DNA of 64,000 nt from Pseudonocardia asaccharolytica DSM 44247 = NBRC 16224 (lineage in GTDB: Bacteria; Actinomycetota; Actinomycetes; Mycobacteriales; Pseudonocardiaceae): assembly GCF_000423625.1 (NCBI RefSeq), contig NZ_AUII01000018.1, positions 1 through 64,000 on the forward strand, written 5' to 3'. Below the pieces are notes generated by a model. The model was not told the origin of the DNA, did not search any database, and saw only the letters and a program-made list of their open reading frames with translations. The position numbers were made by a program, and so were the translations under genes. This document shows, piece after piece, positions 5,826-40,481 of this stretch; position 1 is the first letter of the stretch; the number at the start of each line of letters is the position of its first letter.

Positions 5826-7117
5826 GTAACCGATCGGGCGAGTTTGCCAGGATGCACCGGATGCGGGTACTGATGCTGTCCTGGGAGTACCCCCCGGTCC
5901 TCGTCGGGGGTCTCGGCAGGCACGTGCACGCGCTGGCCGGCGAGCTCGCCGCCGCCGGACACGAGGTCGTCGTGCTCTCCCGGCAGGCCACCGGAACCGA
6001 TGCGAATACCCACCCGACCTGCGACGAACGCGATCCCGACGCCCCCGGGGTCCGGGTACTGCGGGCGGCCGAGGATCCGCTCCATCTCGAGTTCGAGTGC
6101 GACCTGATCGCCTGGACGCTCGCGATGGGCCACGGCATGCTCCGCGCCGCGCTGCTCCACCTCGGGGGCTGGCGTCCCGACGTGATCCACGCCCACGACT
6201 GGCTCGTCGCCCATCCCGCGATCACCCTCGCCGACATGCTGGACGTCCCGTTGGTCGCGACCCTGCACGCCACCGAGGCCGGGCGGCATGCGGGCTGGTT
6301 GTCCGCGCCCCTCAACCGGCAGGTGCATTCCGTGGAGTGGTGGCTCGCCCAGCGGGCCGATTCGGTGATCACCTGCTCGCGCTCGATGCGCGACGAGGTG
6401 GCCTGCCTGTTCGAGCTCGACGCAGACTCGGTCGCCGTGGTGCACAACGGAATCACCGCCCGCGGCTGGCGGGTCCGCAGGGCCGGGGTGACCGCTGCGC
6501 GCGACCGCTACGCCCCCGGAGGCGCCCCGCTGCTGCTCTATGCCGGACGCCTGGAGTACGAGAAGGGCATCCAGGATCTGCTGGCGGCCCTGCCCCGGAT
6601 CCGCCGCCGCCATCCCGGCACCCGGCTCGTCGTCGCCGGTCAGGGCACGCAACGGGAGTTCCTCCTCGACGAGGCACGCCGGCACCGCGTGCGCCGCGCC
6701 GCGACGTTCGCGGGGCACCTTCCCGATGCCGAGCTGGCCGCATTGCTCGCCGCAACCGACGCGGTCGTCCTGCCCAGCCGCTACGAGCCGTTCGGGATCG
6801 TCGCGCTCGAGGCGGCGGCAGCAGGGGCACCGCTGATCGCATCGACCGCGGGCGGCCTGGGCGAGGTGGTGCTCGACGGGATCACCGGGGTGTCGTTCAC
6901 CCCGGGGGATGTAGCCGGGCTGGCCGCCGCGGTCGGGACCGTCCTCGACGACCCGGCCGCCGCGGCGCGGCGCGCCCGTGCGGCGCGCGTCCGGCTCGGT
7001 TCGGAGTTCGATTGGGCCGCTGTGGCGGCCCGCACGGCCGCGATCTATGCCCGCGCTCCGGCGGGCGGCCCCGTCGAGCTCGGCCGACCCAAGATCCCCA
7101 CTGGCAAAACCCTGTGA
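5822..7117 (+). CDS. GT4 alpha-1,4-glucosyltransferase of MGLP/glycogen synthesis (Rv3032-like)
   Basis: A 431-residue GT-B glycosyltransferase. MRVLMLSWEYPPVLVGGLG near the N-terminus is the donor-site loop of glycogen-synthase-like GT4 enzymes. HAHDWLVAHPA and YAGRLEYEKGI follow, then LPSRYEPFGIVALEAAAAG with the EX7E motif. It probably transfers glucose from ADP- or UDP-glucose to a growing alpha-1,4-glucan. The start at 5822 overlaps the preceding stop; an internal ATG at 5861 would also leave a complete domain. The stop codon (7115-7117) lies inside a palindromic repeat shared with five other places in the window. Confidence 0.88.
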   Translation: MSNRSGEFARMHRMRVLMLSWEYPPVLVGGLGRHVHALAGELAAAGHEVVVLSRQATGTDANTHPTCDERDPDAPGVRVLRAAEDPLHLEFECDLIAWTLAMGHGMLRAALLHLGGWRPDVIHAHDWLVAHPAITLADMLDVPLVATLHATEAGRHAGWLSAPLNRQVHSVEWWLAQRADSVITCSRSMRDEVACLFELDADSVAVVHNGITARGWRVRRAGVTAARDRYAPGGAPLLLYAGRLEYEKGIQDLLAALPRIRRRHPGTRLVVAGQGTQREFLLDEARRHRVRRAATFAGHLPDAELAALLAATDAVVLPSRYEPFGIVALEAAAAGAPLIASTAGGLGEVVLDGITGVSFTPGDVAGLAAAVGTVLDDPAAAARRARAARVRLGSEFDWAAVAARTAAIYARAPAGGPVELGRPKIPTGKTL

Positions 7118-7156
7118 GTGCGCAACAGTATTAGAACACTGTTTCACACTCACAGG
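7111..7156. repeat. Palindromic repeat copy 1 (degenerate), between convergent genes
   Basis: This is an imperfect palindrome of the family whose arm is TGAGTGCGTAACAGTGTT, a 2-nt centre and the reverse complement of the arm. Here the left arm reads CGCAACAGTATT and the right arm ends GTTTCACACTCA, so three pairs are lost. The outer CCTG/CAGG still pairs. It contains the TGA stop of the GT4 gene and lies between that gene and the convergent acyltransferase (stop at 7180). It probably acts as a bidirectional terminator hairpin. Confidence 0.85.
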
Positions 7157-7179
7157 CGGGCTTGACCTGCGGAACACCG

Positions 7180-7920
7180 TCAGTCCCGGCTGAGCCGCTC
7201 CCGCACCGCGACCTCGGCCTTGCGCGCGATATCGGCCAGCGCCGCCCGCCGCTCGGCCCCGGCCTCGTAGTCGGCGAGCCGGTCGCGCACCACCCGGGCC
7301 GGGGCGCCGACCGCGATCGAGTACTCCGGGATGTCTCCGCGGGCGACCGCATGCGCGCCCAGCACACTCCCCCGTCCGATCCGGGTGCCACGCAGCACCG
7401 ACGCCTTGACGCCGAGCCAGCAGCCCGGCCCGATCCGCACCGGCATCTTCACGATTCCCTGGTCCTTGATCGGCAGCTGTACGTCGGCGGTGACATGGTC
7501 GAAGTCGGTGACATACACCCAGTCCGCGACGATCGTCGCGGCCCCGATCTCGACGTCGAGATAGCAGTTGACCGTGTTGCTGCGGCCGAAGACGGCCTTG
7601 TCACCGATCCGCAGCGAGCCCTCGTGACAGCGAATCGAGGTCCCGTCGCCGATATGGACCCACCGGCCGATCTCCAGTCGTCCGTAACCGGGCCTCGCGT
7701 ACAGCTCCACGTTCTTGCCCAGAAAGACCAGGCCCCGCAGGATCACGTGCGGATTGGCCAGCCGGAACCGCAACAGCCGCAGGTAGCGGACGAGGTACCA
7801 GGGCGTGATCGCGCGGTGGCGGATCGCCCAGCGCAGCGACGCGAGGGTGAGGAAACACGCCTGCTGCGGATCGCGACGGATGCGCCGCGTCCGGCGACGC
7901 ACGGCCCGAGGCCTCGGCAT
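7180..7920 (-). CDS. Hexapeptide-repeat acyltransferase of the MGLP region (Rv3034c-like)
   Basis: A 246-residue protein. The N-terminal third is basic and helical (RRRTRRIRRDPQQA, WYLVRYLRLLRFR). From about residue 75 it shows left-handed beta-helix turns: LEIGRWVHIGDGTSIRCHEG, GDKAVFG, VEIGAATIVADWVYVTD, and IGPGCWLGVKASVLRGTRIG with VVRDRL afterwards. This is the LbH acetyltransferase fold. Mycobacteria carry a similar transferase beside the MGLP genes, and the polymer is acylated there, so O-acylation of the methylglucan is a reasonable inference. The ATG at 7920 lacks a clear ribosome site; a GTG at 7929 is an alternative. Confidence 0.75.
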   Translation of the reverse strand: MPRPRAVRRRTRRIRRDPQQACFLTLASLRWAIRHRAITPWYLVRYLRLLRFRLANPHVILRGLVFLGKNVELYARPGYGRLEIGRWVHIGDGTSIRCHEGSLRIGDKAVFGRSNTVNCYLDVEIGAATIVADWVYVTDFDHVTADVQLPIKDQGIVKMPVRIGPGCWLGVKASVLRGTRIGRGSVLGAHAVARGDIPEYSIAVGAPARVVRDRLADYEAGAERRAALADIARKAEVAVRERLSRD

Positions 7921-7995
7921 GCCGGTCACACGGAAGACCCTATGCCGCGTACCCGGTGGAGGAGTCGTCGTCCACGGCTGTGTCACGCTGGAGGC

Positions 7996-8955
7996 GTGCC
8001 GATCCCGCTGATCATCGACACCGACCCCGGCGTGGACGACGCCGTCGCGCTGCTGCTCGCGCTGGCCAGCCCGGAGGTCGAGGTGCGTGCGGTCACCACC
8101 GTCTTCGGCAACGTCCCGTTGCCCATGACGACCGCGAACGCGGCGCGGGTCCTCGCGCTGGCCGGCCGCGGCGACGTCCCGCTGGCCGCAGGGGCCGACC
8201 GGCCGCTGGTGCACCCCCAACCCGAACGTGCCGAGGGCTGGCACGGTGCCGACGGCCTTGGCGGGCTAGCGGCCGGCCTGCCCGAGCCCACCGCGGACCC
8301 CGACCCGCGGGGCGCCGTCGGGCTGATGGCCGACGTGCTGAGGGCCGCGCCGGAGCCCGTGACCATCGTCCCGATCGGTCCGCTGACCAATATCGCCCTG
8401 CTGCTGGCCCTGCACCCCGGGCTGACCGGCCGGATAGACCGCATCGTGGCGATGGGCGGTTCGCTGGGCGCGGGCAATACGACCGGCGCCGCGGAGTTCA
8501 ACGTGTTCTCCGATCCCGAGGCGGCGCACCGGGTGTTCACCCAGGCCGAGGTCCCGGTGACGCTGGTGCCGCTCGACCTCACGATGCGCTGTCTCACCGA
8601 CAGCCGCTGGCTCGCCGAACTGGCCGCGGGCGGCCCGCGCTGCGCACAGCTCGCCGCGGTGATCGGCCACTACCACAACGCGTTCCGGACCCGGTACGGC
8701 CTCGACGCGGTGGCGCTGCACGACGCGCTGGCGGTGCTGGAGGCGGTCGTGCCCGGCACCCTGCGCACCACGGGGTTTCCGCTCCGCGTGGCCTGTGATC
8801 TCGGCCCGGCGCGCGGGGTCACCGTCGCCGACCGGCGCCGGGCGGCCCCGGGCCCACAGGTGAACGTCGCGCTGGATGCCGATATCCCGGCCGTGCTCGG
8901 CGAGGTGCTGAAACGCCTGGTCACACCCCCCTGTGAGTGCGTAACAGTGTTCTAA
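7996..8955 (+). CDS. Inosine-uridine-type nucleoside hydrolase
   Basis: A 319-residue protein with the family's calcium/ribose motif IIDTDPGVDDAVALLLA at the N-terminus. PIGPLTNIALLL, IVAMGGSLGAGNTTGAAEFN and ALHDALAVLEAV follow, the last supplying the conserved late His/Asp pair. It would hydrolyse purine or pyrimidine nucleosides to base and ribose for salvage. The GTG at 7996 is chosen because it precedes the conserved VPIPLIIDTDPG; GGAGG is only 1 nt away, so initiation may be unusual. The last seven residues, CECVTVF, are encoded by one arm of a palindromic repeat, whose central TAA ends the gene. Confidence 0.87.
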   Translation: MPIPLIIDTDPGVDDAVALLLALASPEVEVRAVTTVFGNVPLPMTTANAARVLALAGRGDVPLAAGADRPLVHPQPERAEGWHGADGLGGLAAGLPEPTADPDPRGAVGLMADVLRAAPEPVTIVPIGPLTNIALLLALHPGLTGRIDRIVAMGGSLGAGNTTGAAEFNVFSDPEAAHRVFTQAEVPVTLVPLDLTMRCLTDSRWLAELAAGGPRCAQLAAVIGHYHNAFRTRYGLDAVALHDALAVLEAVVPGTLRTTGFPLRVACDLGPARGVTVADRRRAAPGPQVNVALDADIPAVLGEVLKRLVTPPCECVTVF

Positions 8956-8978
8956 CACTGTTACGCACTCACAGGGGG
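8927..8978. repeat. Palindromic repeat copy 2, perfect 25-bp arms
   Basis: The core arm TGAGTGCGTAACAGTGTT is followed by a CT centre and its exact reverse complement. The stem is lengthened outwards by CCCCCTG/CAGGGGG, giving 25 paired bases on each side. The nucleoside hydrolase stop TAA (8953-8955) sits at the centre, and the convergent LuxR gene stops at 8980. It is likely a bidirectional terminator. There is no U-rich tract, which is usual in high-GC actinobacteria. Confidence 0.93.
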
Positions 8979-8979
8979 A

Positions 8980-9663
8980 TCAGGCGAGGCCGTTCTCGAT
9001 CGCGTACCGCACGAGTGCGGCGCGTCCGGAAAGCCCGAGCTTCCGCAGCATGCGCTGGACGTGGTTCTCGACCGTGCGCGGCGACAGGACCAGCCGGCCC
9101 GCGATCTGCCGCGCCGTGAGTCCCTCGACGACCAGGCGCAGCACCTGCGACTCCCGCTCGGTCAGCCGCGGCGCCCCGGCCTGCACGCCGCCGCTGTAGG
9201 CCTCGAGCACCCCCGCGGCCAGCCCCGGACTGAACACCGTCTCCCCCGCCGCGACGCGCCGCACGGCATCGGGGACTGCGATCCAATCGGCGGTGCGCAC
9301 GACGAACCCGGCCGCGCCCGCGCGGACCGCGTCGAGCACCAGATCGTGGTCCGTCTTCGCCGCGACGGCGAGCACCGGCACCGCGGGCAGCGCCACCACC
9401 AGCGACGCGACGTGGTCGACGCCCCCGCCGACATCGACGACGACGACCGTGCCGGGCCCGGTCAGCGGCGGGACCGCCGCCGCGGCGGCAACAGCGCCCG
9501 ACACCGCGAGCCCGGCCGCACGCAGGTCGGCGGCCAGCCCGTCCGCCGCCGCCCCCTCCGCCAGCACGACCACATCGGGCGACGCAGCGCCCATCCACTC
9601 GCGGCGTCCGGTCGGGGCCTTCGGCGAGCACCGGATCGAGGACTCGCTCGCAACCTCGCTCAT
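8980..9663 (-). CDS. LuxR-family regulator with an atypical receiver-like N-terminal domain
   Basis: A 227-residue protein. The C-terminal 65 residues are a clear LuxR/GerE helix-turn-helix: LTERESQVLRLVVEGLTARQ, then LSPRTVENHVQRMLRKLGLS. The N-terminal part looks like a response-regulator receiver (VVVVDVGGGVDH, then AGAAGFVVRTADWIAVPDAV). The acidic pair that normally binds magnesium is replaced (VVVLAEG), so phosphorylation in the usual way is doubtful. The ATG at 9663 has GGAGGT seven bases upstream; a frame extending to 9756 adds non-conserved residues. No histidine kinase is nearby. Confidence 0.8.
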   Translation of the reverse strand: MSEVASESSIRCSPKAPTGRREWMGAASPDVVVLAEGAAADGLAADLRAAGLAVSGAVAAAAAVPPLTGPGTVVVVDVGGGVDHVASLVVALPAVPVLAVAAKTDHDLVLDAVRAGAAGFVVRTADWIAVPDAVRRVAAGETVFSPGLAAGVLEAYSGGVQAGAPRLTERESQVLRLVVEGLTARQIAGRLVLSPRTVENHVQRMLRKLGLSGRAALVRYAIENGLA

Positions 9664-9801
9664 CGCGCACCTCCGCACCGGATGCTGCCATCGCCGGCGG
9701 TGCGGTCCGTCCCGCATCGAACGGTGCCACCCGGACGATCGAGGATGATCACTCATGGCGCGCCGGCTGCCGTGACGCAGCGTCAGCCCACGCCGGCAGC
9801 G

Positions 9802-10752
9802 CTACGCCGTCCCGGTGATCAGCGCGTTGTAGAACCACCCGCGCGGCACCACGCGGGACAGCACATGTCGATCCAACCAGGACAGTCGCTGCCAGCCGTG
9901 GTAGGCGAACATCGCCCAGCGCGCGCCGAGCCGTCCCGTCGGCACCGCGGCCTCGAACGTGCGGACCGGCCAGCCGAGCATCGCGGCGGTGAACTCCTCG
10001 GTCGCCACCCGCACGTCGGCCGCCCCCGCGCGACGGGCGATGGCCGCCAGGTCGTCGGGATCGAACACATGCTGGTCGACGACGGCCTCCAGCGCGGCCG
10101 CCCGCGACGACTCGTCGAGCTCGACCTGCGGGCGCCGCCAGCTCCGCAATCCCGGCAGCCGGGTGACGGTCGTGACGGCCTTCCAGGTCAGCGACCCGAG
10201 CCTGCGGGCATAGCGGTCGCCGATCCGGGTCGGCTCACCGGCGAAGACGAACCGGCCGCCGGGACGCAGCACGCGCAGCACCTCGCGCAACGCCGCCTCC
10301 ACGTCGGGGATGTGGTGCAGGACCGCATGCCCGACGACGACGTCGAACGAGTCGTCGTCGTACGGGATCCGCTCGGCGTCGGCGACCCGGCCGTCGACCC
10401 TGCCGTCGCCGAGGTCGAGGCGCTCGGCGTTGCGCAGCGCGGCCTGCACCATTCCGGGCGAGAGATCGGTCACCGAGCCCCACGCCGCAAGACCGGCCTG
10501 CATGAGGTTGAGCAGGAAGAACCCGGTGCCACAGCCCAGCTCCAGCGCCCGGCCGTAGGGCCAGTCGGCGTCCCCGGCGATGGCGCGGAACCGGTCGGCG
10601 GCGTAGGTGATACAGCGCTCGTCGTAGGAGATCGACCACTTGTCGTCGTACGAGCCGGCCTCCCAGTCGTGGTACAGCACGTTGGCCAGCTTCGGATCGT
10701 GCCGCGCCGCCGCCACCTGCTCGGCGGTCGCGTGCGGGTTCGGCACCGGCAC
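9802..10752 (-). CDS. Class I SAM-dependent methyltransferase (Rv3038c-like)
   Basis: A protein of about 316 residues. After VPNPHATAEQV and YHDWEAGSYDDKWSISYDERC comes motif I, ALELGCGTGFFLLNLMQAGL. VVVGHAVLHHIPDVEAALRE and VLRPGGRFVFAGEPT complete the Rossmann methyltransferase core. The C-terminal 90 residues are specific to this actinobacterial subfamily. Mycobacteria have this gene immediately before echA17 and an ABC ATPase, as here, so synteny supports the call. The substrate is unknown, though the neighbourhood suggests lipid or glycan methylation. The GTG at 10752 follows GAGGGGCGG; a longer frame to 10881 would read through a 60-nt inverted repeat and is less likely. Confidence 0.78.
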   Translation of the reverse strand: MPVPNPHATAEQVAAARHDPKLANVLYHDWEAGSYDDKWSISYDERCITYAADRFRAIAGDADWPYGRALELGCGTGFFLLNLMQAGLAAWGSVTDLSPGMVQAALRNAERLDLGDGRVDGRVADAERIPYDDDSFDVVVGHAVLHHIPDVEAALREVLRVLRPGGRFVFAGEPTRIGDRYARRLGSLTWKAVTTVTRLPGLRSWRRPQVELDESSRAAALEAVVDQHVFDPDDLAAIARRAGAADVRVATEEFTAAMLGWPVRTFEAAVPTGRLGARWAMFAYHGWQRLSWLDRHVLSRVVPRGWFYNALITGTA

Positions 10753-10770
10753 CGGGGTCCGCCCCTCGGA

Positions 10771-10830
10771 GATCGTCGGATGTGGGACACCGGCGTCACC
10801 GGTGACGCCGCCGACCCACATCCGACGATC
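10771..10830. repeat. 60-nt near-perfect inverted repeat in the echA-methyltransferase gap
   Basis: Two 30-nt halves are complementary at 27 of 30 positions with no loop. The outer arm is GATCGTCGGATGTGGG and the centre is the perfect palindrome GGCGTCACCGGTGACGCC; the mismatches fall at ACAC versus TCGG between them. It lies 96 nt after the enoyl-CoA hydratase stop and just before the methyltransferase start, with both genes on the minus strand. It may be a terminator, an attenuator or a palindromic element of a second family. No second copy was seen in the window. Confidence 0.85.
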
Positions 10831-10925
10831 ATGCACGGTCACGGCCTTCGGGAAAGGGTTCGGAACGAGCCCGGGTGTCACTCATCGGTCACCAGCGTAG
10901 CCAGGGATCGGCAGCCGACCGGGGC

Positions 10926-11705: not shown

Positions 11706-11762
11706 GCCGCGCACCCTAACCCGCCCCGACCGGCCGGCCGAGCACAGGACGTGAATCTCACC

Positions 11763-12596: not shown

Positions 12597-12616
12597 GCGC
12601 TCTATCCTCGCCGATC

Positions 12617-14647
12617 GTGCCGGTCTTCCCACTGGGTGCCCATGTCGACGACGGCGGGGCGCGCTTTGCGGTCGCCTCGACCAGCGCGGACGCCGTCGAG
12701 GTATGCCTTGTGGACGACGTGGACGAAGGCCCGAACGGCCCGCTGACCGAGCGACGCATCGAGCTCACCGAACAGACCTTCGGGGTCTGGCACGGGCATG
12801 TCCCCGGTGTGCGCCCCGGGCAGCGCTACGGCTACCGGGTACACGGTCCCTATCACCCGTGGGACGGCGTGCGCGCCAACCCCGCCAAGATCCTCGTCGA
12901 CCCCTACGCGAAGCAGATCACCGGTCGCGTCACCGATCTCGGCGCCGCCCGCGGCTGGTGCGACGACCCGATGACCGGCCCGCCGAGCCCGGTCGACTCG
13001 CTCGGGCACGTCCCGCTCTCGGTGGTGACCGCGCCGCGCACCGGGCCGCCGGGGCCGCGTCCGGGTGTCCCGTGGTCGGAGACCGTCATCGCCGAGGTGC
13101 ACGTTCGCGGCTACACGATGCGCCACCCCGACGTCCCGCCCCAGCAGCGGGGCAGCTACCTCGGCCTCGCGCACCCCGCCGTGATCGCGCACCTGCAACG
13201 GATCGGCGTCACGTCGGTCGAACTGCTGCCGGTCGCCGCGATCGTCGACGAACCGCCGCTGCTCGACCGCGGCGCACCGAACTACTGGGGCTATTCGACA
13301 CTGGGCTTCATGGCCCCGCACGCCGGGTACGCGAGCGTTCCCGGCGCCGAGCTCACCGAGTTCGCGGCGATGGTCGAAGCGCTGCACGCGGCCGGGATCG
13401 AGGTCATCCTCGACATGGTCCCCAACCACACGTGCGAGGGTGGCGTGGCGGGAACGACGCTGTGCTACCGCGGGCTCGACGCGCGGGCGTACTACTCACT
13501 GACCCCGGACGGTCACGACGCCGACATCACCGGCTGCGGCAACACCCTGGACTCCGGCTCGCCCACGGTGATCCGCCTGGTCTGCGACGCGCTGCGGTAC
13601 TGGGTGACGGCGTTCGGCGTCGACGGCTTCCGCATCGACCTCGCGAGCGTGCTCGGCCGCCCCCGCTCCGGCCCGTTCGACCCGCACGCCCCGTTGCTCA
13701 CCGCGATCACCGTCGACCCGGTCCTCTCGACGACGAAGCTGATCGCCGAGCCCTGGGACGCCACCGCGGAGGGCTACCGGGTCGGAGGCTTCGGCGTCGC
13801 CTGGTCGGAGTGGAACGGGCGCTACCGCGACGCCGTGCGCGACTTCTGGCGCGGACACGGCCGGATCGGCGAGCTGGCCTCGCGGATCACCGGCAGCTCG
13901 GACATCTACGCGCTGTCCCGGCGGCGGCCCTGGGCGTCGATCAACTTCGTCACCGCGCACGACGGCTTCACGCTGCGCGACCTCGTTTCCTACGAGCGCA
14001 AGCACAACGAGGCCAACGGCGAGGAGAGCCGGGACGGCTCCGAGGACAACCGCTCGCAGAACTTCGGCGTCGAGGGCGAGAGCGCCTCGCCGGTGATCCG
14101 GGCGCGGCGGCTGGCCACCGCGCGGGCGATGCTCGCGACGCTGCTGCTGTCCACCGGCACCCCGATGCTGCTGGGGGGCGACGAGCGCTGGCGCACCCAG
14201 GGCGGCAACAACAACGCCTACTGCCTCGACGACGAGACGACGTGGATCGACTGGTCGGCCTGTGCGGGAACGCCCGAGCAGCTGACGGATTTCATCGCGC
14301 GCGTCGCCGCGCTGCGCCGCTCGCATCCGGGCCTGCGCCGCGACCGCTTCTTCACCGACACCGATGCGACGTGGTGGCATCCGTCGGGACGGCGGATGAC
14401 CGACCAGGACTGGCACGAACCCCATGCGCACACCGTCGGGCTGCTCACCCGTGACCGGCTCCTGCTGATGCACGGCGCCGCCGCGGCGGTGGCCTGCACG
14501 CTGCCGACGGAGGGCGCGTTCCGTCCGGTGCTGGACACCAGCACGGATGATGGCCGACCGGTCTCGACCCGGCCGTTTCCCGGCGGCGCGACGATCACGC
14601 TGCCCCCGCACTCCCTGGTGCTCCTCCGCCGTCCGGTGAGTGCGTAA
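12617..14647 (+). CDS. glgX: Glycogen debranching enzyme GlgX (GH13 isoamylase type)
   Basis: A 676-residue enzyme. An N-terminal beta-sandwich (VFPLGAHVDDGGARFAVAST, YGYRVHGPYHPWDGVRANP) is followed by a GH13 barrel with VILDMVPNHTCEG, GFRIDLASVLGR (nucleophile Asp at about 341), LIAEPWDA (acid/base Glu at about 378) and FVTAHDGFTLRDLVSYERKH. It removes alpha-1,6 branches left by phosphorylase. It faces glgP convergently, and the two form a breakdown pair. The last codons GTG AGT GCG TAA are part of a palindromic repeat, so the final VSA residues come from the repeat. Confidence 0.93.
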   Translation: MPVFPLGAHVDDGGARFAVASTSADAVEVCLVDDVDEGPNGPLTERRIELTEQTFGVWHGHVPGVRPGQRYGYRVHGPYHPWDGVRANPAKILVDPYAKQITGRVTDLGAARGWCDDPMTGPPSPVDSLGHVPLSVVTAPRTGPPGPRPGVPWSETVIAEVHVRGYTMRHPDVPPQQRGSYLGLAHPAVIAHLQRIGVTSVELLPVAAIVDEPPLLDRGAPNYWGYSTLGFMAPHAGYASVPGAELTEFAAMVEALHAAGIEVILDMVPNHTCEGGVAGTTLCYRGLDARAYYSLTPDGHDADITGCGNTLDSGSPTVIRLVCDALRYWVTAFGVDGFRIDLASVLGRPRSGPFDPHAPLLTAITVDPVLSTTKLIAEPWDATAEGYRVGGFGVAWSEWNGRYRDAVRDFWRGHGRIGELASRITGSSDIYALSRRRPWASINFVTAHDGFTLRDLVSYERKHNEANGEESRDGSEDNRSQNFGVEGESASPVIRARRLATARAMLATLLLSTGTPMLLGGDERWRTQGGNNNAYCLDDETTWIDWSACAGTPEQLTDFIARVAALRRSHPGLRRDRFFTDTDATWWHPSGRRMTDQDWHEPHAHTVGLLTRDRLLLMHGAAAAVACTLPTEGAFRPVLDTSTDDGRPVSTRPFPGGATITLPPHSLVLLRRPVSA

Positions 14648-14682
14648 CAGTGTTGGAACACTGTTACGCACTCACCGGACGG
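14629..14682. repeat. Palindromic repeat copy 3, perfect 26-bp arms, between glgX and glgP
   Basis: The core arm TGAGTGCGTAACAGTGTT has a GG centre and its exact reverse complement. The stem is extended by CCGTCCGG/CCGGACGG, which on the left is glgX coding sequence. The repeat holds the glgX stop (14645-14647) and ends one base before the glgP stop (14683-14685, reverse strand). Its function is probably bidirectional termination of two convergent genes. Confidence 0.95.
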
Positions 14683-17259
14683 TTAGGCCAAGGCGACCTT
14701 GCCCAGCTCCGCCGGTGCGGCCAGTAGCGGATGCGCGGGCAGCACCCGGACCGTGTAGCCGGTGAGCCCGGCGTGCGGCAGCGGAACCACGGCCTCGAAC
14801 CGCGCCATCCCGTCGGTCCGGCCGATGTGCTTCATCGCCACGCTCACCGGGGCGTCGAGCTCGTCGGACTCGTCAACCCGCCCGACGACGGCCTCCACCG
14901 ACACGTCGGCCGGGTCCAGCCCGGCCAGATCGACCGCGGCCCGCACGGTCATCGGAGCCCCGACGACCGGTGTGTCCGGCAGCCCGGACGCGTCGACCCC
15001 GGCCACCGACACCCGCGACCACGCCGCGTTCAGCCGGGCCCGGTAGGCGGCCAGCTCCCTGGCCCCGGCGTAGTCGTCGGCGGCGATCGCCGCGGCCGCG
15101 CGCGCGGCGGGTGCGTACCAGCCCTGGACGTACTCGCGCACCATCCGGGTCGCCTGTACCTGCGGGCGCAGCGTGGCGAGCGTGTGCCGGACCAGCTCCA
15201 CCCAGCGGCTCGGCACCCCGTCGGTCCGCTCGTAGAACGCGGGCGCCACCTGGGTGGCCAGCAGCTCGTAGAGCGCGTTGGCCTCCAGGTCGTCGCGCCG
15301 GACGGGATCGGCGATCCCGTCGGCGGTCGGGATCGCCCAGCCGTTGGCGCCGTCGTAGAGCTCGTCCCACCACCCGTCGCGGATCGACAGGTTCAGCCCG
15401 CCGTTGAGGGCGGACTTCATCCCGGACGTCCCGCATGCCTCCAGCGGGCGCAGCGGGTTGTTCAGCCAGACGTCGCAGCCCCAGTACAGGACCCGGGCCA
15501 TCGACATGTCGTAGTCGGGCAGGAAGACGATGCGGTGCCGGACGGCCGAGTCGTCGGCGAACCGGACGATCTGCTGAATCAGTGCCTTGCCGCCGTCATC
15601 GGCCGGATGGGACTTGCCGGCGACGATCAGCTGGACCGGCCGGTGCGGGTCGAGCAGCAGGTCGCGCAGCCGGTCGGGGTTGCGCAGCATCAGAGTGAGC
15701 CGCTTGTAGGTGGGCACCCGGCGGGCGAACCCGACGGTGAGCACGTCGGGGTCGAAGACGTGGTCGGTCCAGCCCAGCTCGGGGGCCGAGGCCCCGCGCT
15801 CCAGCCACGCGGCCCGCACCCGGCGGCGCACCTCGTCCACCAGCCGCGACCGCAGCGTCGCGCGCAGCGCCCACAGCGTCGCATCGGAGACGACGTCCTC
15901 CGCGAGGGCCGCCGCGCCGCCGTCGCCGAGCAGCTCGGTGATCTCGCGGGCCTCCCAGGTCGGCCCATGCACCCCGTTGGTGACCGAGCCGATCGGCACC
16001 TCGTCGGTATCGAAGCCCTCCCACAGCCCGCCGAACATCTCCCGGGAGACACAGCCGTGCAGCTTGGACACCCCGTTGGCGCGCTGGGCGAGGCGAAGCC
16101 CCATATGCGCCATGTTGAACATGCTCGGGTTCTCCTCGGCGCCCAGCGCGATGACCCGGTCCGTGGGCACCCCGGGCAGCAGCCGGGAGCCGGTCTGCGC
16201 GCCGTCGTCCGGACTCGCGAAGTAGTGCTGGACGAGTTCGACGGGGAACCGGTCGATCCCGGCCGGAACGGGGGTGTGGGTGGTGAACACCGTCCCGGCC
16301 CGGACGGCGGAGACGGCCTCGTCGAAGCTCAGCGCTCCACCCGCGGAGCCCGCCGAGCGGTCCTGCAGCTCCCGGACCCGTTCGAGGCCGAGATGACCCG
16401 CATGACCCTCGTTGGTGTGGAAGACATCGGGTTCGGGATGTCCGGTGGCCGCGCAGAATGCGCGGACCGCGCGCACCCCGCCGATCCCGATGAGCAGTTC
16501 CTGCTTGATCCGGTGGTCCTGGTCGCCGCCGTAGAGCCGGTCGGTGACCCCGCGCAGGTCGGGGTCGTTGTCCTCGATGTCGGTGTCGAGCAGCAGCAGC
16601 GGGACGCGCCCGACCGCGGCCTGCCAGATCCGGGCCTTGAGCGAGCGGCCCGCGGGCATGCTCACCTCGACGAGCACCGGCGCGCCCGACCGGTCGGCCA
16701 GCAGCTGCAGCGGCAGCCCCTGCGGATCGAGAACCGGGTAGTGCTCGAGCTGCCAGCCGTCCAGCGACAGCGACTGCCGGAAGTACCCCGACCGGTAGAG
16801 CAGCCCGACGCCGATCACCGGGACACCGAGGTCGGACGCCGCCTTGAGATGGTCACCGGCGAGCACCCCCAGCCCACCCGAATAGTTGGGCAGCACCTCG
16901 CTGACGCCGAACTCCATGGAGAAGTAGCCGATCGCCGCGGGCAGCGAGGGGTCGTCCTCGCGCTCGTTCTGGTACCAGCGCGGGTCGCGGAGATAGGCCT
17001 CGAGGTCGTCGGCGAGCTCACGGACCGTGACGACGGTCTCGGCGTCCGCGGCCAGCTCGGCCAGCCGCGCGCTGCGGATCTCCCCGAGCAGCCGGACCGG
17101 ATCGTGCCCCACCCGCTCCCATGCCTCCGGGTCGAGCTGCGCGAACAGGTCCTGCGTCGGCGGGTGCCAGCTCCACCGGAGGTTGGTGGCCAATGTCTGC
17201 AGCGACGCGAGCTGCCGGGGTAGCTGGGCACGGACGGTGAAGCGACGCAAGGCTCTCAC
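14683..17259 (-). CDS. glgP: Alpha-glucan (glycogen) phosphorylase, GT35
   Basis: An 858-residue phosphorylase of the shorter bacterial/archaeal subtype. NLRWSWHPPTQDLFAQLDPE near the N-terminus and FSMEFGVSEVLPNYSGGLG are subtype motifs. FHTNEGHAGHLGLERV carries a substrate-site histidine. EACGTSGMKSALNGGLNLS is the pyridoxal-phosphate site with its lysine. It releases glucose-1-phosphate from alpha-1,4 chains and works with GlgX. The GTG at 17259 (VRALRRFTV) matches the usual family start; the extra 30 codons upstream are low complexity. It is divergent from glgE, with about 150 bp between starts that must contain both promoters. Confidence 0.93.
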   Translation of the reverse strand: MRALRRFTVRAQLPRQLASLQTLATNLRWSWHPPTQDLFAQLDPEAWERVGHDPVRLLGEIRSARLAELAADAETVVTVRELADDLEAYLRDPRWYQNEREDDPSLPAAIGYFSMEFGVSEVLPNYSGGLGVLAGDHLKAASDLGVPVIGVGLLYRSGYFRQSLSLDGWQLEHYPVLDPQGLPLQLLADRSGAPVLVEVSMPAGRSLKARIWQAAVGRVPLLLLDTDIEDNDPDLRGVTDRLYGGDQDHRIKQELLIGIGGVRAVRAFCAATGHPEPDVFHTNEGHAGHLGLERVRELQDRSAGSAGGALSFDEAVSAVRAGTVFTTHTPVPAGIDRFPVELVQHYFASPDDGAQTGSRLLPGVPTDRVIALGAEENPSMFNMAHMGLRLAQRANGVSKLHGCVSREMFGGLWEGFDTDEVPIGSVTNGVHGPTWEAREITELLGDGGAAALAEDVVSDATLWALRATLRSRLVDEVRRRVRAAWLERGASAPELGWTDHVFDPDVLTVGFARRVPTYKRLTLMLRNPDRLRDLLLDPHRPVQLIVAGKSHPADDGGKALIQQIVRFADDSAVRHRIVFLPDYDMSMARVLYWGCDVWLNNPLRPLEACGTSGMKSALNGGLNLSIRDGWWDELYDGANGWAIPTADGIADPVRRDDLEANALYELLATQVAPAFYERTDGVPSRWVELVRHTLATLRPQVQATRMVREYVQGWYAPAARAAAAIAADDYAGARELAAYRARLNAAWSRVSVAGVDASGLPDTPVVGAPMTVRAAVDLAGLDPADVSVEAVVGRVDESDELDAPVSVAMKHIGRTDGMARFEAVVPLPHAGLTGYTVRVLPAHPLLAAPAELGKVALA

Positions 17260-19555: not shown

Positions 19556-21330
<1,775 letters not shown>

Positions 21331-33780: not shown

Positions 33781-33912
33781 TACGGGCCTCCAGCAATATG
33801 CGACGGTGGTCGACGGATTGACGATACCTGCGGGCTCCCCACGTCGACCCCCAGAAGAGGGGAGGTGGAGTGAGAGTCCGGACACGATCCGCCGCCATTA
33901 CATTTCTCGTTC

Positions 33913-34368: not shown

Positions 34369-34450
34369 CGCACCCCGACGGACGGTCGCATGGCGCGACG
34401 TGGCGTCCATCACCATGCTGGGCGATGACCCTGCAGGGGAGCGAGCAGCG

Positions 34451-34471
34451 GTTACTATACTGATCGGTAAC
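34451..34471. promoter_or_regulatory. Putative promoter/operator of ccr
   Basis: GTTAC (34451-34455) and GTAAC (34467-34471) form an inverted repeat with an 11-nt spacer that includes TATACT (34456-34461), a good -10 hexamer. A repressor dimer bound here would cover the -10. TGATCGGT inside the site recurs in related form before the ethylmalonyl-CoA mutase gene. The ccr start lies about 60 nt downstream. The function is inferred. Confidence 0.5.
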
Positions 34472-34521
34472 TTCTAGTATCCCAAGCAGGCGGGACACGA
34501 CTCAGCCATCGGAGGCAGGCC

Positions 34522-35853: not shown

Positions 35854-35935
35854 TCGCCGGACCGGGCGGACCGAACAGGGAGGTGAGAGTCGCCACCAGC
35901 GACGCTCGCCTCGCGACGGCCCGCGGACCAGCAGG

Positions 35936-35941
35936 TACGGT
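35936..35941 (+). promoter_or_regulatory. Possible -10 element of a leaderless transcript for the coiled-coil gene
   Basis: TACGGT ends 7 nt before the ATG at 35949, the spacing expected if transcription starts on the A of the start codon. GAGG lies only 3 nt from the ATG, too close for a normal ribosome site. Leaderless initiation is common in actinobacteria. This is inference only. Confidence 0.35.
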
Positions 35942-35948
35942 GAGGTTC

Positions 35949-36845
35949 ATGGCCGGGAATCTGGACACGTTCGCGTCCGACGCCGGTTTCGCCATCGCGC
36001 GGCGGGGCTACGACCAGGCCCACGTCGACGCTCACCTGCGCCGGCTCGACACCGAGATCCGTCTGCTGGCGGCCGATCGCGATGCGGCGGTCGACCAGGC
36101 CACCCAGCTCGGCCGGGAGCTCGACGAGGAGCGTGGCCGCGCGGAGGCCCTCCGCCTGCAGATCCGCAGGCTGTCCTCGCCGCCGCAGAGCGTCCAGGGC
36201 ATGAGTGAGCGGCTGCGGTCCATGCTCCGGCTGGCCGAGGACGAGGTCGCGGAGATGCGCAGCCAGGCCGACAGCGAGGTGTCCGCGCGGCTGCGTGAGG
36301 CCGAGCAGCGGGCCAACGCGATCATCGCGGATGCCGAGGCGACGGCGAAGGAAATCGACGCGCGGACCCGTTCCCAGAGCGCCGAGCTGGAGATCCGGCG
36401 CAAGGCCGCCGAGCAGGCGATCAACCGCCGCCGGACCGAGGTCGAGAACGAGCTGGCCCGCGCCACCGCCGAGGCGGAGGCCGAACGATCTCGGCTGTGG
36501 GAGGAGTCCGCGAACGAGCGGGCGACGATCGAGGAGGACTTCGCCATCGCGATGGACGCCCGGCGCGCCGAGGCTCTCGCCGAGATCGAGGCCGGGCGGG
36601 CCGAGGCCCGTGGCGAGGTGGCTCGGATCGAGCGGGAGGCCGACGCCCAGGCCCGGCGCCGGATCGCCGACGCCCAGGCCGAGGCGGACCGCATCGTGAC
36701 CGAGGCGCAGCGCCGCGTGACCGAGCTGACGGCGTTGCGCCGGCGGATCGTCGAGCAGCTGGGCACCGCCCGCGCGGTGATCGATCGCAGCATCGGGCAC
36801 GAGCTCGCCGAGCTATCCGAGGAAAACCCCACCGTGAGTGCGTAA
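35949..36845 (+). CDS. DivIVA-domain coiled-coil protein, FilP/Scy-like
   Basis: A 298-residue protein. The first 50 residues (FAIARRGYDQAHVDAHLRRL) are a DivIVA-type membrane-curvature motif. Nearly all the rest is charged heptad repeat (RLREAEQRANAIIADAEATA; ERATIEEDFAIAMDARRAEA) forming a long coiled coil. Such proteins act as cytoskeletal or polar-growth scaffolds. In Streptomyces the scaffold genes filP and scy sit beside the epimerase, thiolase and mutase genes of the same pathway, so this looks like conserved synteny. The last codons and the TAA stop lie in palindromic repeat copy 4. Confidence 0.8.
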   Translation: MAGNLDTFASDAGFAIARRGYDQAHVDAHLRRLDTEIRLLAADRDAAVDQATQLGRELDEERGRAEALRLQIRRLSSPPQSVQGMSERLRSMLRLAEDEVAEMRSQADSEVSARLREAEQRANAIIADAEATAKEIDARTRSQSAELEIRRKAAEQAINRRRTEVENELARATAEAEAERSRLWEESANERATIEEDFAIAMDARRAEALAEIEAGRAEARGEVARIEREADAQARRRIADAQAEADRIVTEAQRRVTELTALRRRIVEQLGTARAVIDRSIGHELAELSEENPTVSA

Positions 36846-36873
36846 CAGTGTTCTAACACTGTTACGCACTCAC
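36834..36873. repeat. Palindromic repeat copy 4, between convergent genes
   Basis: The core arm TGAGTGCGTAACAGTGTT, a CT centre and an exact reverse complement, plus one extra G/C pair. Unlike copies 2, 3 and 6, the stem does not extend far. It contains the stop of the coiled-coil gene (36843-36845) and lies 12 bp from the stop of the convergent zinc-motif gene. Confidence 0.93.
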
Positions 36874-36885
36874 AGGCCACGCCTA

Positions 36886-37176
36886 TCAGCGGCGACGGCC
36901 ACCCGGCCGGCGCCGCTCCCGCGCATCCCAGCACGGCATATGCCAATGCCTGCGGTCCTCGACGGAGCCGTACTCCCCCGCGGGCCAGGTCACGAGATGC
37001 CCCGTTCCGGCCCGGATGAGCTGGTCGCAGCCCGGGCACCGGTAGTCCTTGGCCGACGACGAGCCCGGCACACTCCGCACCACCCACTCCCCGTCCGGCC
37101 CGCTCTCGGCGCGGGTGAACGCCGCCGATCGCAGCGGTACGTGGACGGGGCGCTCCGCCCGGTTGCGTCGCGGCAC
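36886..37176 (-). CDS. Small actinobacterial protein with CxxC zinc motif
   Basis: A 96-residue basic protein. SSAKDYRCPGCDQLIRAGTG and RRHWHMPCWDARERRRP give a CPGC pair and a later HWHxPCW cluster, consistent with one zinc site. Proteins of this pattern are widespread in actinobacteria, sometimes labelled ATP/GTP-binding without proof. The GTG at 37176 is 4 bp after the stop of the dehydrogenase gene, so it is probably co-translated with it. Function unknown. Confidence 0.7.
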   Translation of the reverse strand: MPRRNRAERPVHVPLRSAAFTRAESGPDGEWVVRSVPGSSSAKDYRCPGCDQLIRAGTGHLVTWPAGEYGSVEDRRHWHMPCWDARERRRPGGRRR

Positions 37177-37180
37177 GGCG

Positions 37181-38971
37181 TCAGCGGCCGTTGTAGTCCC
37201 GGAAACCGTGGCCGACCTTGCGGCCGAGACGGCCCGCCGTGACCAGGTGCTCGAGCAGCGGAGCGGGTGCGAACCCGGACTGGCGGAACTCCTGGTACAG
37301 CGACCGCTCGATGGCCAGCGAGACGTCGAGGCCGACGACGTCGAGCAGTTCGAACGGCCCCATCGGCAGCGCACACCCCGTCTTCATCGCGGCGTCGATG
37401 TCATCGGCGGTCGCATAGTGCGCCTCGAGCATCTTCACCGCGTCGTTGAGGTACGGGAACAGCAGGGCGTTGACGATGAACCCGGCGCGGTCGCGGCAGG
37501 ACACCGGCACCTTCCCCAACCGCTCGCACAGCGCGAGGGCGGTGGCGGCGACATCGGGCGCGGTCGTGATCGTCGAGACGATCTCGACCAGCTTCATCAC
37601 CGGCGCCGGGTTGAAGAAGTGCAGGCCGATGACGTCGGACGGGCGGGAGGTCGCCGCAGCGCACTCCACCACGGGCAGCGAGGACGTGGTCGTCGCCAGG
37701 ATCGCGCCCGGCTTGCAGATCTCGTCGAGCGCGGCGAACACCGCGCGCTTGACGTCGAGCTCCTCGGCGACCGCCTCGATGACCAGGTCGACGTCGGCGA
37801 AGTCCTCCAGCCGCGTCGTGCCGGTGATCCGGCCGAGCGCGGCGTCCCGGTCCTCCTCGGAGATCCGCCCGCGCACGACGGCCTTGTCCAGCGACTTGCG
37901 GATTCCGGCGATCGAGGCCTCGACCTTGGAGCCGCTGCGCCCACGCACGATCACGTCGAGCCCGGCCTTGGCCAGAACCTCGACGATCCCGCTGGCCATC
38001 GTCCCGGTGCCGACGACGCCGACCCGCGCGACCTCGCGCACCGCCACGTTCTCGGGCACGGTGCCCGTGGGGGTCTCGGCGTCCGGCACGATCTTCGAGG
38101 AATGCGGACTCTCGTAGGTGTAGAAGCCGCGCCCGCTCTTGCGGCCCAGCAACCCGGCGGTGATCATCTGCTTGAGCATCGGGGTGGGCGCGTGCATCTG
38201 GTTGCGCGACTGGCGGTACATCGTGTCGAGGATCTCGTAGGCGGTATCGAGCCCGATCAGGTCGAGCAGCGCCAGCGGCCCCATCGGGTAGCCGCAGCCG
38301 TAGCGCATCGCGGCGTCGAGGTCCTCCCGGCTGGCGTACCGCGACTCGTACATCCGGGCGGCGTGGTTGAGATAGCCGAACAGCAACGCGTTGGCGATGA
38401 ACCCGGCCCGGTCGCCGATCACGACCGGCACCTTGCCCACGCTCTCGGCGAACCGGTGAAGGTCGTCGACGACGTCCGGCTCGGTGACGACGGTGCGGAC
38501 CACCTCGACGAGCTTCAGCACCGGAGCCGGGTTGAAGAAGTGCATCCCGATGACCTTGCCGGGCCGCCCGGTGCGCACCGACAGTTCGGTGACCGACAAC
38601 GACGAGGTGTTCGACGCGAGGATCACGTCGGGTCGCACGACCTTGTCGAGTTCGGCGAAGACCGACGCCTTGAGCTCCAGGTTCTCCGGCACCGCCTCGA
38701 CGACGAGGTCGACATCGGTGAAGTCCGCCAGGGAGGTCGTCGTGGTGATCCGGTCGAACAGCTCGGCGGCGGCCTCGTCCGTCAGCTTGCCGCGCTCGAT
38801 GGCACGCCTGGTGGAGGTCTCCACGTGCGCCCGCCCGCGTGCGATCGCGTCCTCATCCACCTCGGCCACGATGACGCGCAGGCCGTTGCGCGCGAACACC
38901 TCGGCGATCCCGGCACCCATCGTGCCCATACCGACGACGCCGACCGTCCGGAATTCCCGTGTCACGCTCAT
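37181..38971 (-). CDS. Tandem-fused 3-hydroxybutyryl-CoA dehydrogenase
   Basis: A 596-residue protein with two complete dehydrogenase modules. Module 1 (about 1-290) has VGVVGMGTMGAGIAEVFA, NTSSLSVTELS and IGMHFFNPAPVLKLVEVV. Module 2 (about 310-596) has VGVVGTGTMASGIVEVLA, TTSSLPVVECA and IGLHFFNPAPVMKLVEIV. After the second beta strand module 1 has an acidic residue (VIVAEVD), as in NAD enzymes. Module 2 has VIVRGRS, as in NADP enzymes. The protein would reduce acetoacetyl-CoA or oxidise 3-hydroxybutyryl-CoA in the ethylmalonyl-CoA route. The ATG at 38971 follows GGGAGGTC. Confidence 0.9.
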   Translation of the reverse strand: MSVTREFRTVGVVGMGTMGAGIAEVFARNGLRVIVAEVDEDAIARGRAHVETSTRRAIERGKLTDEAAAELFDRITTTTSLADFTDVDLVVEAVPENLELKASVFAELDKVVRPDVILASNTSSLSVTELSVRTGRPGKVIGMHFFNPAPVLKLVEVVRTVVTEPDVVDDLHRFAESVGKVPVVIGDRAGFIANALLFGYLNHAARMYESRYASREDLDAAMRYGCGYPMGPLALLDLIGLDTAYEILDTMYRQSRNQMHAPTPMLKQMITAGLLGRKSGRGFYTYESPHSSKIVPDAETPTGTVPENVAVREVARVGVVGTGTMASGIVEVLAKAGLDVIVRGRSGSKVEASIAGIRKSLDKAVVRGRISEEDRDAALGRITGTTRLEDFADVDLVIEAVAEELDVKRAVFAALDEICKPGAILATTTSSLPVVECAAATSRPSDVIGLHFFNPAPVMKLVEIVSTITTAPDVAATALALCERLGKVPVSCRDRAGFIVNALLFPYLNDAVKMLEAHYATADDIDAAMKTGCALPMGPFELLDVVGLDVSLAIERSLYQEFRQSGFAPAPLLEHLVTAGRLGRKVGHGFRDYNGR

Positions 38972-39059
38972 GACCTCCCGCTGCCCGTCGACACGTACTG
39001 GCCGCGATCCTCCCATCCAAAGCGCTCGGTATACCACGCATGTCACCTGGAACACCCCT

Positions 39060-39097
39060 TGAGTGCGTAACAGTGTTAGAACACTGTTACGCACTCA
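39060..39097. repeat. Palindromic repeat copy 5, downstream of nucS
   Basis: The minimal 38-nt core: arm TGAGTGCGTAACAGTGTT, AG centre, reverse complement. The flanks do not pair (T versus C at the first outer position). It begins 9 bp beyond the nucS stop (39106) and lies upstream of the dehydrogenase gene, both on the minus strand. It would therefore terminate nucS before the next gene. Confidence 0.93.
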
Positions 39098-39105
39098 CCG
39101 GGATG

Positions 39106-39765
39106 TCAGAACAGCCGGAGATCGTCGGACTCCGCTCCGCGCAACTCGTCGTAGTCGAGAACGACGCAGCGGATCCCCCGGTCCTCGGCCAGGGTCCGCG
39201 CCTGCGGCTTGATCTGCTGTGCGGCGAACACCCCGGCGACCGGGGACAGCAGCGGGTCGCGGTTCATCAGCTCGAGGTATCGGGTGAGCTGCTCGACACC
39301 GTCGATCTCACCGCGCCGCTTGACCTCGACGGCGACGCTGCGGCCGTCCCCGTCCCGGCACAACAGGTCGACCGGACCGATGGCGGTCATGTACTCGCGG
39401 CGGACGAGCGTATAGCCCTCGCCGAGGGCACCCGGATGCGCCGCCAGCAGCTCCTGCAGACGCGCCTCGACGCCGTCCTTCACCAGGCCCGGGTCCACAC
39501 CGAGGGTGTGGCTCGAGTCGTGCAGCACCTCGTCGATCGTGATGATCAGCGACTCGTCGGCCTTGTTTCGCACCGTCCAGACCCCGGGCCGTTCCTCCAG
39601 CCAGCACGGCGGGCTCATCCAGTTGAGCGGCTTGTAGGCCCGGTCGTCGGCGTGCACGGAGACCGAGCCGTCGGCCTTCACCAGCAGCAGCCGGGGCGCC
39701 ATCGGCAGGTGGGCGGTGAGGCGTCCCACGTAGTCGACCTGGCAGCGAGCGATGACGAGGCGCAC
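39106..39765 (-). CDS. nucS: Endonuclease NucS/EndoMS
   Basis: A 219-residue protein. [20 protein letters not shown] opens the N-terminal dimerisation/DNA-binding domain with [20 protein letters not shown]. The C-terminal RecB-like nuclease domain has [20 protein letters not shown] (Asp and the ExK catalytic pair) and [14 protein letters not shown]. NucS cuts both strands at mismatches and takes the place of MutS/MutL in actinobacteria. In mycobacteria it lies close to the ATP synthase region, as here. The GTG at 39765 is followed by the conserved first strand. Confidence 0.93.
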
Positions 39766-39875
39766 CGCACGGAGCCTACTTGGGCTCTCCGAACCACCCG
39801 GCCGCCGTCGCGTCGCGGGCGCCGCCGGACCGCCCCGCGACACCGCGAGGCCGGCGGGCAGGGCACGGTAGGCGC

Positions 39876-40409
39876 GTGCAGACGATCCGCAGCCGCACGG
39901 TCTACGCGAACCCATGGATGACCGTCCGCGAGGACGGGATCCGCAGGCCCGACGGTACTGAGGGGATCTTCGGCGTGATCGACAAACCGACCGCGGCGAT
40001 CATCATTCCGCGCCGGGACGACCAGCTGCTCCTCGTCGAGCAGCTCCGGTATCCGGTCGGGGCGCGACGCTGGGAGTTCCCGATGGGCACCGCACCGGAC
40101 CGCGCCGAGGTCGACCCGGCTGTTCTCGCGGCCAGGGAGCTGCGCGAGGAGACCGGTCTGTCGGCCGGGCGTATCGAGCTGCTCGGGGACCTCGACGTCG
40201 CGCCGGGCATGTCGAGTCAGCGCGAGCACGTCTTCCTGGCCACCGAGCTGACGCAGGGGTGGCCGGTGCGCGAGCACACCGAGCAGGACATGCAGACCCG
40301 CTGGTTCTCCATCGCCGAGTTCGAGGCGATGGTGCGGCGGTCGGAGATCGTCGATGCGCAGAGCCTCGCGGCGTATCTGCTGCTTCTGCTCCACGACCGG
40401 CGGCCCTGA
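39876..40409 (+). CDS. Nudix hydrolase, ADP-ribose-pyrophosphatase type
   Basis: A 177-residue Nudix protein. [20 protein letters not shown] is typical of ADP-ribose pyrophosphatases. The Nudix box is [14 protein letters not shown], preceded by a G at the start of the box in MGTAPDR, and holds the metal-binding [22 protein letters not shown] lies before it. It would hydrolyse ADP-ribose or a related nucleotide sugar; the exact substrate is uncertain. The GTG at 39876 is chosen from domain boundaries. It is divergent from nucS, starts 110 bp apart. Confidence 0.87.
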
Positions 40410-40429
40410 CCGATATCACCAGGTCCCGC

Positions 40430-40481
40430 CTCCCTGTGAGTGCGTAACAGTGTTAGAACACTGTTACGCACTCACAGGGAG
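40430..40481. repeat. Palindromic repeat copy 6, between Nudix and crotonase genes
   Basis: The core arm TGAGTGCGTAACAGTGTT, AG centre and exact reverse complement, extended by CTCCCTG/CAGGGAG. It starts 20 bp after the Nudix stop and ends 45 bp before the crotonase start, both on the plus strand. It is probably a terminator separating two co-directional genes. Here it does not supply a stop codon. Confidence 0.93.

Follow-up and report, generated by a model that had tools for sequence, protein, structure and literature searches.

A dispersed palindrome at gene 3' ends in Pseudonocardia asaccharolytica, a probable REP-like element with relatives across Pseudonocardiaceae

The genome of Pseudonocardia asaccharolytica (G000; 5,054,974 bases in 71 contigs) carries 133 to 139 near-identical copies of a short palindrome, six of them in the 64,000-nucleotide stretch analyzed here, which we call the window (C17:1-64000). 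The repeat, designated family A, consists of an arm, TGAGTGCGTAACAGTGTT, a 2-nt center (NN), and the reverse complement of the arm. As judged from genome comparison, its distribution indicates that it multiplied by copying: the stem is free to vary between and within genomes, yet more than 100 sites in this genome are near-identical and its relatives lack them, which is best explained by recent descent from one copy. The original prediction, made from the window alone, had proposed that the repeat was copied or spread recently, local hairpin selection being insufficient by itself, and this is well supported by the number of copies, their absence from 61 congeners, the 83 copies whose inner 28 nt are exact, and the variability of the stem elsewhere. 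On balance, and with modest confidence, we regard family A as a dispersed palindrome of ~42 to 46 nt resembling repetitive extragenic palindromes (REPs), copy-multiplied and retained nearly exclusively where a transcript 3' end tolerates or benefits from a hairpin.

Copy number and placement in the host genome

A genome-wide search with the 38-nt core (≤3 mismatches) retrieved 133 copies and none with the reversed control, and a pattern of 20 fixed bases (≤3 mismatches) retrieved 139, so the repeat is not confined to a few sites. The exact 28-nt inner part with a CT or AG center accounts for 83 copies. After removal of two duplicate rows, 101 distinct copies were read. Outside the window, contig C1, and five loci of C2, copies were picked through lists of core or arm matches, which favors exact cores, and a few were chosen for carrying one mutated arm; hence, the counts of centers and of copies with both arms perfect (81 of 101) are not unbiased. 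The unbiased sample of the window plus C1 has 15 perfect copies out of 21.

Gene borders were taken from a codon-usage script trained on the same DNA. By these calls, the 101 copies divide into 45 in convergent gaps, 50 in tandem gaps, 5 in divergent gaps, and a single one inside a gene, which is far from a random scatter within coding sequence; the 5 divergent copies and the inside copy, at loci where no tRNA gene was found, may be gene-call errors. The window and 400 kb of C1, regions not chosen for their elements, hold 12 convergent and 9 tandem copies and no others. Counted per gap in C1, the element occupies 8 of 62 convergent, 7 of 237 tandem, and 0 of 61 divergent gaps (convergent versus divergent, p=0.006). 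Most neighboring gene ends (130 of 140) overlap the element or lie within 28 nt of it, and at 67 of 140 the stop codon is inside the element, supplied as TGA by the arm (39 ends), TAA by the arm (24 ends), or TAA at a CT center (4 ends), a feature absent from the original prediction. Read along transcription, the center of tandem copies is CT in 34 and AG in 16 (p=0.015), a bias that may be explained by the CT center closing the third reading frame. Two other long inverted repeats in convergent gaps of C1 (C1:292678 and C1:327457) are unrelated to family A.

The family A arm hardly occurs unpaired in this genome. An exact 13-mer of the arm has 112 + 106 matches, compared with 139 palindromes, and, among the 100 listed out of 218, the six lone-looking matches that were read all have a partner arm with 1 or 2 changes. 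These counts bear on the idea that the arms are DNA uptake signals paired into hairpins. In Neisseria, according to PMC1852404, paired uptake signals do build terminator hairpins where genes end; however, solitary signals are abundant there, whereas here the six lone-looking matches that were read have their partners, and we give this idea very little credence.

The six copies in the window

Twelve arms forming six pairs were detected in the window (≤3 mismatches), compared with 0 in 100 dinucleotide shuffles, and five of the six cores are perfect while copy 1 carries 2 + 2 substitutions, in agreement with the original description. Its statements that all copies lie at gene ends, four between convergent genes and two after a gene on the same strand, and that the ATP synthase half lacks them were also borne out: our own gene calls place the cores starting at 7115, 8934, 14637, and 36835 in convergent gaps and those at 39060 and 40437 in tandem gaps, with zero copies at 40.5 to 64 kb, where the ATP synthase alpha and beta genes reside. 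The neighboring genes are unrelated to each other, as seen in the following list.

Copy 1, 7111..7156 (core 7115-7152), decayed, center AG, 4 flanking pairs; TGA at 7115-7117 stops the + strand glycosyltransferase gene 5861-7117, and the - strand gene 7180-7902 ends 27 nt beyond.
Copy 2, 8927..8978 (core 8934-8971), perfect, center CT, 7 flanking pairs; the center TAA at 8953-8955 stops the + strand gene 7996-8955 (nucleoside hydrolase), and the - strand gene 8980-9663 (LuxR-type HTH regulator) ends 8 nt off.
Copy 3, 14629..14682 (core 14637-14674), perfect, center GG, 8 flanking pairs (ccgtccgg/ccggacgg); the arm TAA at 14645-14647 stops the + strand gene 12617-14647 (CBM48/amylase), and the - strand gene 14683-17193 (carbohydrate phosphorylase) ends 8 nt off.
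Copy 4, 36834..36873 (core 36835-36872), perfect, center CT, 1 flanking pair; the arm TAA at 36843-36845 stops the + strand gene 35949-36845 (DivIVA-domain protein).
Copy 5, 39060..39097, perfect, center AG; 8 nt past the stop codon of the - strand nucS gene 39106-39765.
Copy 6, 40430..40481 (core 40437-40474), perfect, center AG, 7 flanking pairs; 27 nt past the + strand NUDIX gene 39876-40409.

The final residues of the CBM48/amylase protein, VSA, are encoded by copy 3, and the orthologs of four congeners have other short tails. A search of the window with Rfam families at gathering score gave 0 hits.

Distribution among relatives and empty sites

Family A was sought in 61 congeners and in a family-wide sample of 346 genomes from 46 genera. 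None of the 61 congeners carries the repeat, with one weak match each in 5 of them, and the 38-mer is absent from the 24 congeners searched with it. In the family-wide sample, 27 genomes, P. asaccharolytica included, match once or more at 2 mismatches, and several of them show only a variant or chance-like single hit. Carriers among the matches listed are Saccharopolyspora hirsuta, S. oryzae, and S. indica, as well as Amycolatopsis vastitatis, A. bullii, A. vancoresmycina, A. sp. 2-2, and metagenome-assembled genomes of Pseudonocardiales. Coordinates common to two of the searches match G274 to S. hirsuta, G365 to A. vancoresmycina, and G079 to the metagenome-assembled genome nzgw100, in keeping with a sample drawn from Pseudonocardiaceae. 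Family A copies in named genomes of other genera are again mostly convergent or tandem (40 of 47), with 6 at locus edges and 1 divergent.

Orthologous gaps lack the element. After nucS it is absent from G013 (NucS identity of 93%, the highest among congeners) and from G045 (92%), although the downstream sequence aligns in both. Four of the gaps have both neighbors adjacent in G013 as well, and family A is present in none of them, while two hold unrelated palindromes. Other palindromes are found after glgP in G017, G067, and G075, and the nucS slot of G015, G051, and G077 carries a second palindrome family. The unrelated palindromes after glgP and in the two gaps of G013, like the compensatory stem changes described below, are what one would expect of ordinary host terminators that arose in place under hairpin selection and were made alike by gene conversion. 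However, G013 lacks both family A and the octamer pattern of the wider superfamily, conversion cannot fill empty gaps, and a U-tract is missing, so we consider an origin in place quite unlikely.

The string CCCGTACGGG, present in two element-free gaps of relatives, was considered as a target or remnant of the element and rejected, because its copy numbers in seven sequence sets range only from 0 to 2. The second palindrome family, unrelated to family A, has the arm GTCGAGAACGAACTTGTCGTGATC (L151:1417-1497 in G051), with 264 matches in G051, 70 in G077, 14 in G015, 8 in P. asaccharolytica, 1 in G010, and none in the remaining 57 genomes of the genus sample. Further palindromes, which have varied interiors and an outer arm like GTGCGCGG, occur at L252:14810 and L258:13603 (both in G013), in L166 (G061), and in G075; those with a called context (G013) lie at gene ends, and they are possibly another superfamily of the same build.

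A wider superfamily of 42-nt palindromes

The palindrome in other genera extends as TCGTGAGTG...CACTCACGA. The octamer pattern CGTGAGTG-N(20-32)-CACTCACG matches 171 of the 346 family genomes in 25 of the 46 genera, with a maximum of 451 matches (genome G133) and, by our own count from the listing, at least 10 matches in 83 genomes; the reversed pattern gives one match in each of 4 genomes. Most matches listed are 42 nt in total, that is, CGTGAGTG-N26-CACTCACG, and on sequence grounds family A is one interior version of this palindrome. Only 33 exact matches are found in P. asaccharolytica because the first octamer base is different in the majority of its copies; a member with a different interior is located at C1:156434. 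Superfamily loci resemble family A in their placement, 28 of 30 being convergent or tandem.

Two further searches delimit the superfamily. Among 266 genomes of the order outside the family, scanned with the octamer pattern, 10 have matches: seven genomes once, one genome twice, G497 17 times, and G607 9 times. The seven single matches are close to the background given by the reversed control, which hits 4 of 328 genomes one time each. In G497 and G607 (family f8, genus g80), 11 of the 12 listed matches are 42 nt long and have interiors of their own. A pattern-free search for inverted repeats in 400 kb of G133 yielded 24 hits, 10 of which have the octamer pair, all 10 in convergent or tandem gaps, and the octamer occurs 69 times versus ~14 expected. 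G133 also contains two near-identical 55-nt palindromes, TGCCATGAACGAC... (L225:3665 and L227:16824; C1:83665 and C1:136824), which are unrelated to the octamer family; one of them occupies a convergent gap, and the other was called within a gene.

Pairing, covariation, and exchange of arms

Alignment of 67 distinct 42-mers of the superfamily showed that 89.8% of cells are paired while the middle positions are low in sequence information. Both sides are changed in 225 cells versus a shuffled mean of 89.0, a contrast inflated by sequence relatedness, as are shuffle controls in general here; the safer slid controls give a covariation score of at most 0.089, compared with 0.379 for the true register. 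The invariance of the octamers in this alignment is a product of the search pattern. The apex GTT..AAC is mostly kept although the patterns did not demand it, and part of this conservation is owed to family A members.

Pairing continues beyond the core in P. asaccharolytica. Flank position -2/+2 is paired in 85 of 101 copies versus 41 expected (T:A 48, C:G 25, and G:C 12), positions 5 and 6 show a modest excess (55 versus 42 and 53 versus 44 expected), and contiguous flank pairing averages 4.5 bp versus 2.3 bp with shuffled partners. Within the core, 20 changes are one-sided, 5 are compensated pairs, and a single double change is uncompensated. Hairpin selection and template-switch correction of the palindrome could each produce this pairing pattern.

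The same alignment bears on the proposal that the repeat is the site of a sequence-specific DNA-binding protein, acting in chromosome organization, as a roadblock, or in termination, and that the copies are alike by selection, with the octamer and apex as contacts. The kept apex, the constant total length of 42 nt in most listed matches, and the octamer pair in 10 of the 24 inverted repeats from the unbiased search of G133 all point this way. However, stem pairing far above chance in a middle region low in information is not needed for a double-stranded site, octamer invariance was set by the choice of pattern, and C1 has 31 GTGAGTGCG sites versus 15 elements, meaning that half-sites are not used alone. 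A binding site is therefore an unlikely explanation.

Arms also appear in new combinations. Nine of 27 copies in G133 join two different arms, each within 1 mismatch of another copy's arm, the G000-type arm included, indicating that half-element exchange occurs at least in this genome; no such chimera was found in the other two copy sets (52 and 22 copies). Recombinase sites that exchange half-sites at the dyad center, in the manner of att sites, would account for this shuffling, and the center is often an asymmetric dinucleotide, CT or AG. However, homologous recombination or gene conversion could give the same chimeras, no recombinase was identified, two copy sets are free of chimeras, and the rise in copy number would be left unexplained, all of which makes an att-like system improbable.

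A loose motif beside the copies

A weak motif, ~TTGA[GC]C[TA]G[CG]G, lies 10 to 19 nt from the core on both sides of the copies in P. asaccharolytica. A matrix built from the downstream sides of tandem copies scores the convergent sides at 1.74 at the right offset and at -1.7 to -5.0 when slid by 1 to 4 nt, with -0.14 for tandem upstream sides and -4.45 for random sequence. The reciprocal matrix from convergent sides scores 3.36 for tandem downstream sides, 0.93 for upstream sides, and -2.97 for random sequence (paired p=0.008). Since the cores are near-identical yet the motif is loose, it is not decayed homology. In our reading, the flank motif reflects a symmetric preference for target sites during the burst in this genome; alternatively, it might act like a pause signal once the hairpin has been passed. 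A general signal of gene ends was rejected, the motif being found at 11.5% of 338 element-free gene ends and in 11.3% of 4000 random 80-mers, and its scores in other genera are near random. Copies in G133 (L221-L240) show a weak skew toward T, G, A/C, and C at positions +8 to +11 outward, which is unlike this motif.

A role at transcript ends and the question of mobilization

When five flanking bases per side are included, the RNA of one copy is predicted to fold into a single 22-bp hairpin of -41.6 kcal/mol. Position, orientation bias, and stem covariation taken together favor a role of the element at transcript 3' ends. In the proposed scenario, copies would enter as a unit, the fixed-distance flank motif reflecting the target preference of a symmetric insertion machinery. 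Once transcribed, a copy might form a hairpin of 20 to 22 bp that lacks a U-tract and that would mark or protect the 3' terminus of one facing transcript or of both. Copies landing in promoters or genes would be purged, and those at stop codons could survive because the element with a CT center closes all three frames. The original prediction had offered a terminator, a protein-binding site, or a miniature mobile element; we would argue for a mobile-type palindrome that may serve as a transcript 3' hairpin. A more specific version, which we put forward only tentatively and think somewhat doubtful, is a new class of miniature mobile element: a symmetric 42-nt palindrome with two exchangeable 20-nt arms, which an enzyme other than a Y1 transposase would copy into gene-end sites bearing a symmetric, position-locked motif, and which would double as stop codon and 3' hairpin and would have multiplied repeatedly across Pseudonocardiaceae with different inner stems.

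Several observations weigh against a mobile REP-like element kept as a 3' hairpin. Among the 50 tandem copies, T-runs within the 20 nt that follow reach a maximum of 0 to 3 nt in every case, so the element is not a canonical intrinsic terminator. A ribosome at the stop codon should hinder the folding of an overlapping element, which concerns 67 of 140 gene ends. When coding constraint is matched, the flank motif shows no significant effect of direction (scores of 0.77 for 57 sides versus -0.52 for 41 sides; p=0.10). One-sided core changes exceed compensated ones in P. asaccharolytica (20 versus 5, mutated-arm copies having been partly sought), and the inner arms of 17 of 27 copies in G133 differ at 4 or more of 12 positions, meaning that full pairing is not always kept, which limits any requirement for it. 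At the nucS locus, only 2 of 28 congeners have a strong inverted-repeat score of at least 12 (a 29th congener, at a contig end, was excluded), and a stricter scan of 29 loci found one inverted repeat, suggesting that a hairpin is not required there; the idea that every slot is hairpin-filled in relatives is thus unsupported at nucS. Finally, no copying enzyme was identified, and Y1 transposase genes are absent from the highest-copy genomes, namely, G133 (451 copies), G245 (395), G140 (335), G360, and G355.

This last point also concerns REP mobilization by RAYT or IS200-type Y1 transposases, for which the size, copy number, and placement of the element would be fitting. Y1_Tnp (PF01797) was detected in 62 of 346 genomes, including P. 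asaccharolytica and the carriers G340 (12 matches, 78 copies), G317 (153 copies), and G167 (120 copies). However, it is missing from every genome of genus g31, with up to 392 copies, as well as from the genomes above, Y1 presence and copy number having been compared by eye without a computed correlation. P. asaccharolytica has one full Y1 gene (C16:16228-16593, locus L243), where no hairpin was seen at the threshold used, and one fragment (C37:14899-15009), which lies ~0.6 kb from an element copy. The element also lacks the one-sided unpaired GTAG or CGTC tag of REPs. RAYT-type mobilization of the superfamily is unlikely, and we rate the whole explanation as highly improbable. Plasmid and phage records gave no match to a 46-nt composite of the element.

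Textbook terminators with a U-tract are uncommon in actinobacteria, and little is known about transcript termini in these bacteria. A palindrome that marks the ends of tens to hundreds of genes in a single genome offers a concrete candidate for a 3' signal in a family of antibiotic producers, and the superfamily provides a way to watch such signals spread. If the palindromes move without a Y1 transposase, they would point to a hitherto unrecognized copying activity in these bacteria.

Comparison with known systems

In searches of open-license papers by string and topic, no listed title or opening of an abstract described the element; the octamer-type string in PMC7783346 belongs to primers only. 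Among known elements, miniature inverted-repeat transposable elements are small, non-coding, and present in many near-identical copies, which is common to the element. No target-site duplication was noticed, though not by a systematic test; the flanks are inverted-complementary and not direct repeats, and clean empty sites were too few for a firm comparison. No parent transposon was identified, and no search was aimed at one. Integron attC sites, like the element, fold as palindromes, have a variable middle, and follow a gene at its 3' side. An attC identity was rejected on the R-box consensus only, the ends of the element having no R boxes; the element also differs in being dispersed through the genome. 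Like Rho-independent terminators, the element forms a stable hairpin just past or overlapping the stop codon, but it has no U-tract and is near-identical in sequence at unrelated genes.

The paired uptake signals of Neisseria and Pasteurellaceae, as described in PMC1852404, share with the element arms in inverted pairs, hairpins at gene ends, and a flank signal that is stronger along transcription. They differ in that single signals are abundant and T-tails are present, whereas the arms here are paired and no T-tail follows.

The closest comparison is with REPs, as covered by PMC3733652, whose main text contains none of the words actinobacteri-, Streptomyces, or Mycobacteri-. REPs of the GTAG and CGTC superfamilies have a one-sided unpaired GTAG or CGTC tag, and GTAG REPs have stems mostly of 6 to 9 bp and are tied to RAYT (PMC3733652). 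Unlike these, the element is symmetric, with a stem of ~20 bp and a shared outer octamer and apex; it has no tag, and its two flanks resemble each other and are mostly paired (C-R-G-G outward); and it has no consistent link to Y1, its highest-copy genomes lacking PF01797. Like REPs, however, these are short, high-copy palindromes in species-specific families with alternative complementary stem residues, and they lie, as REPs do, mostly in convergent or tandem gaps.

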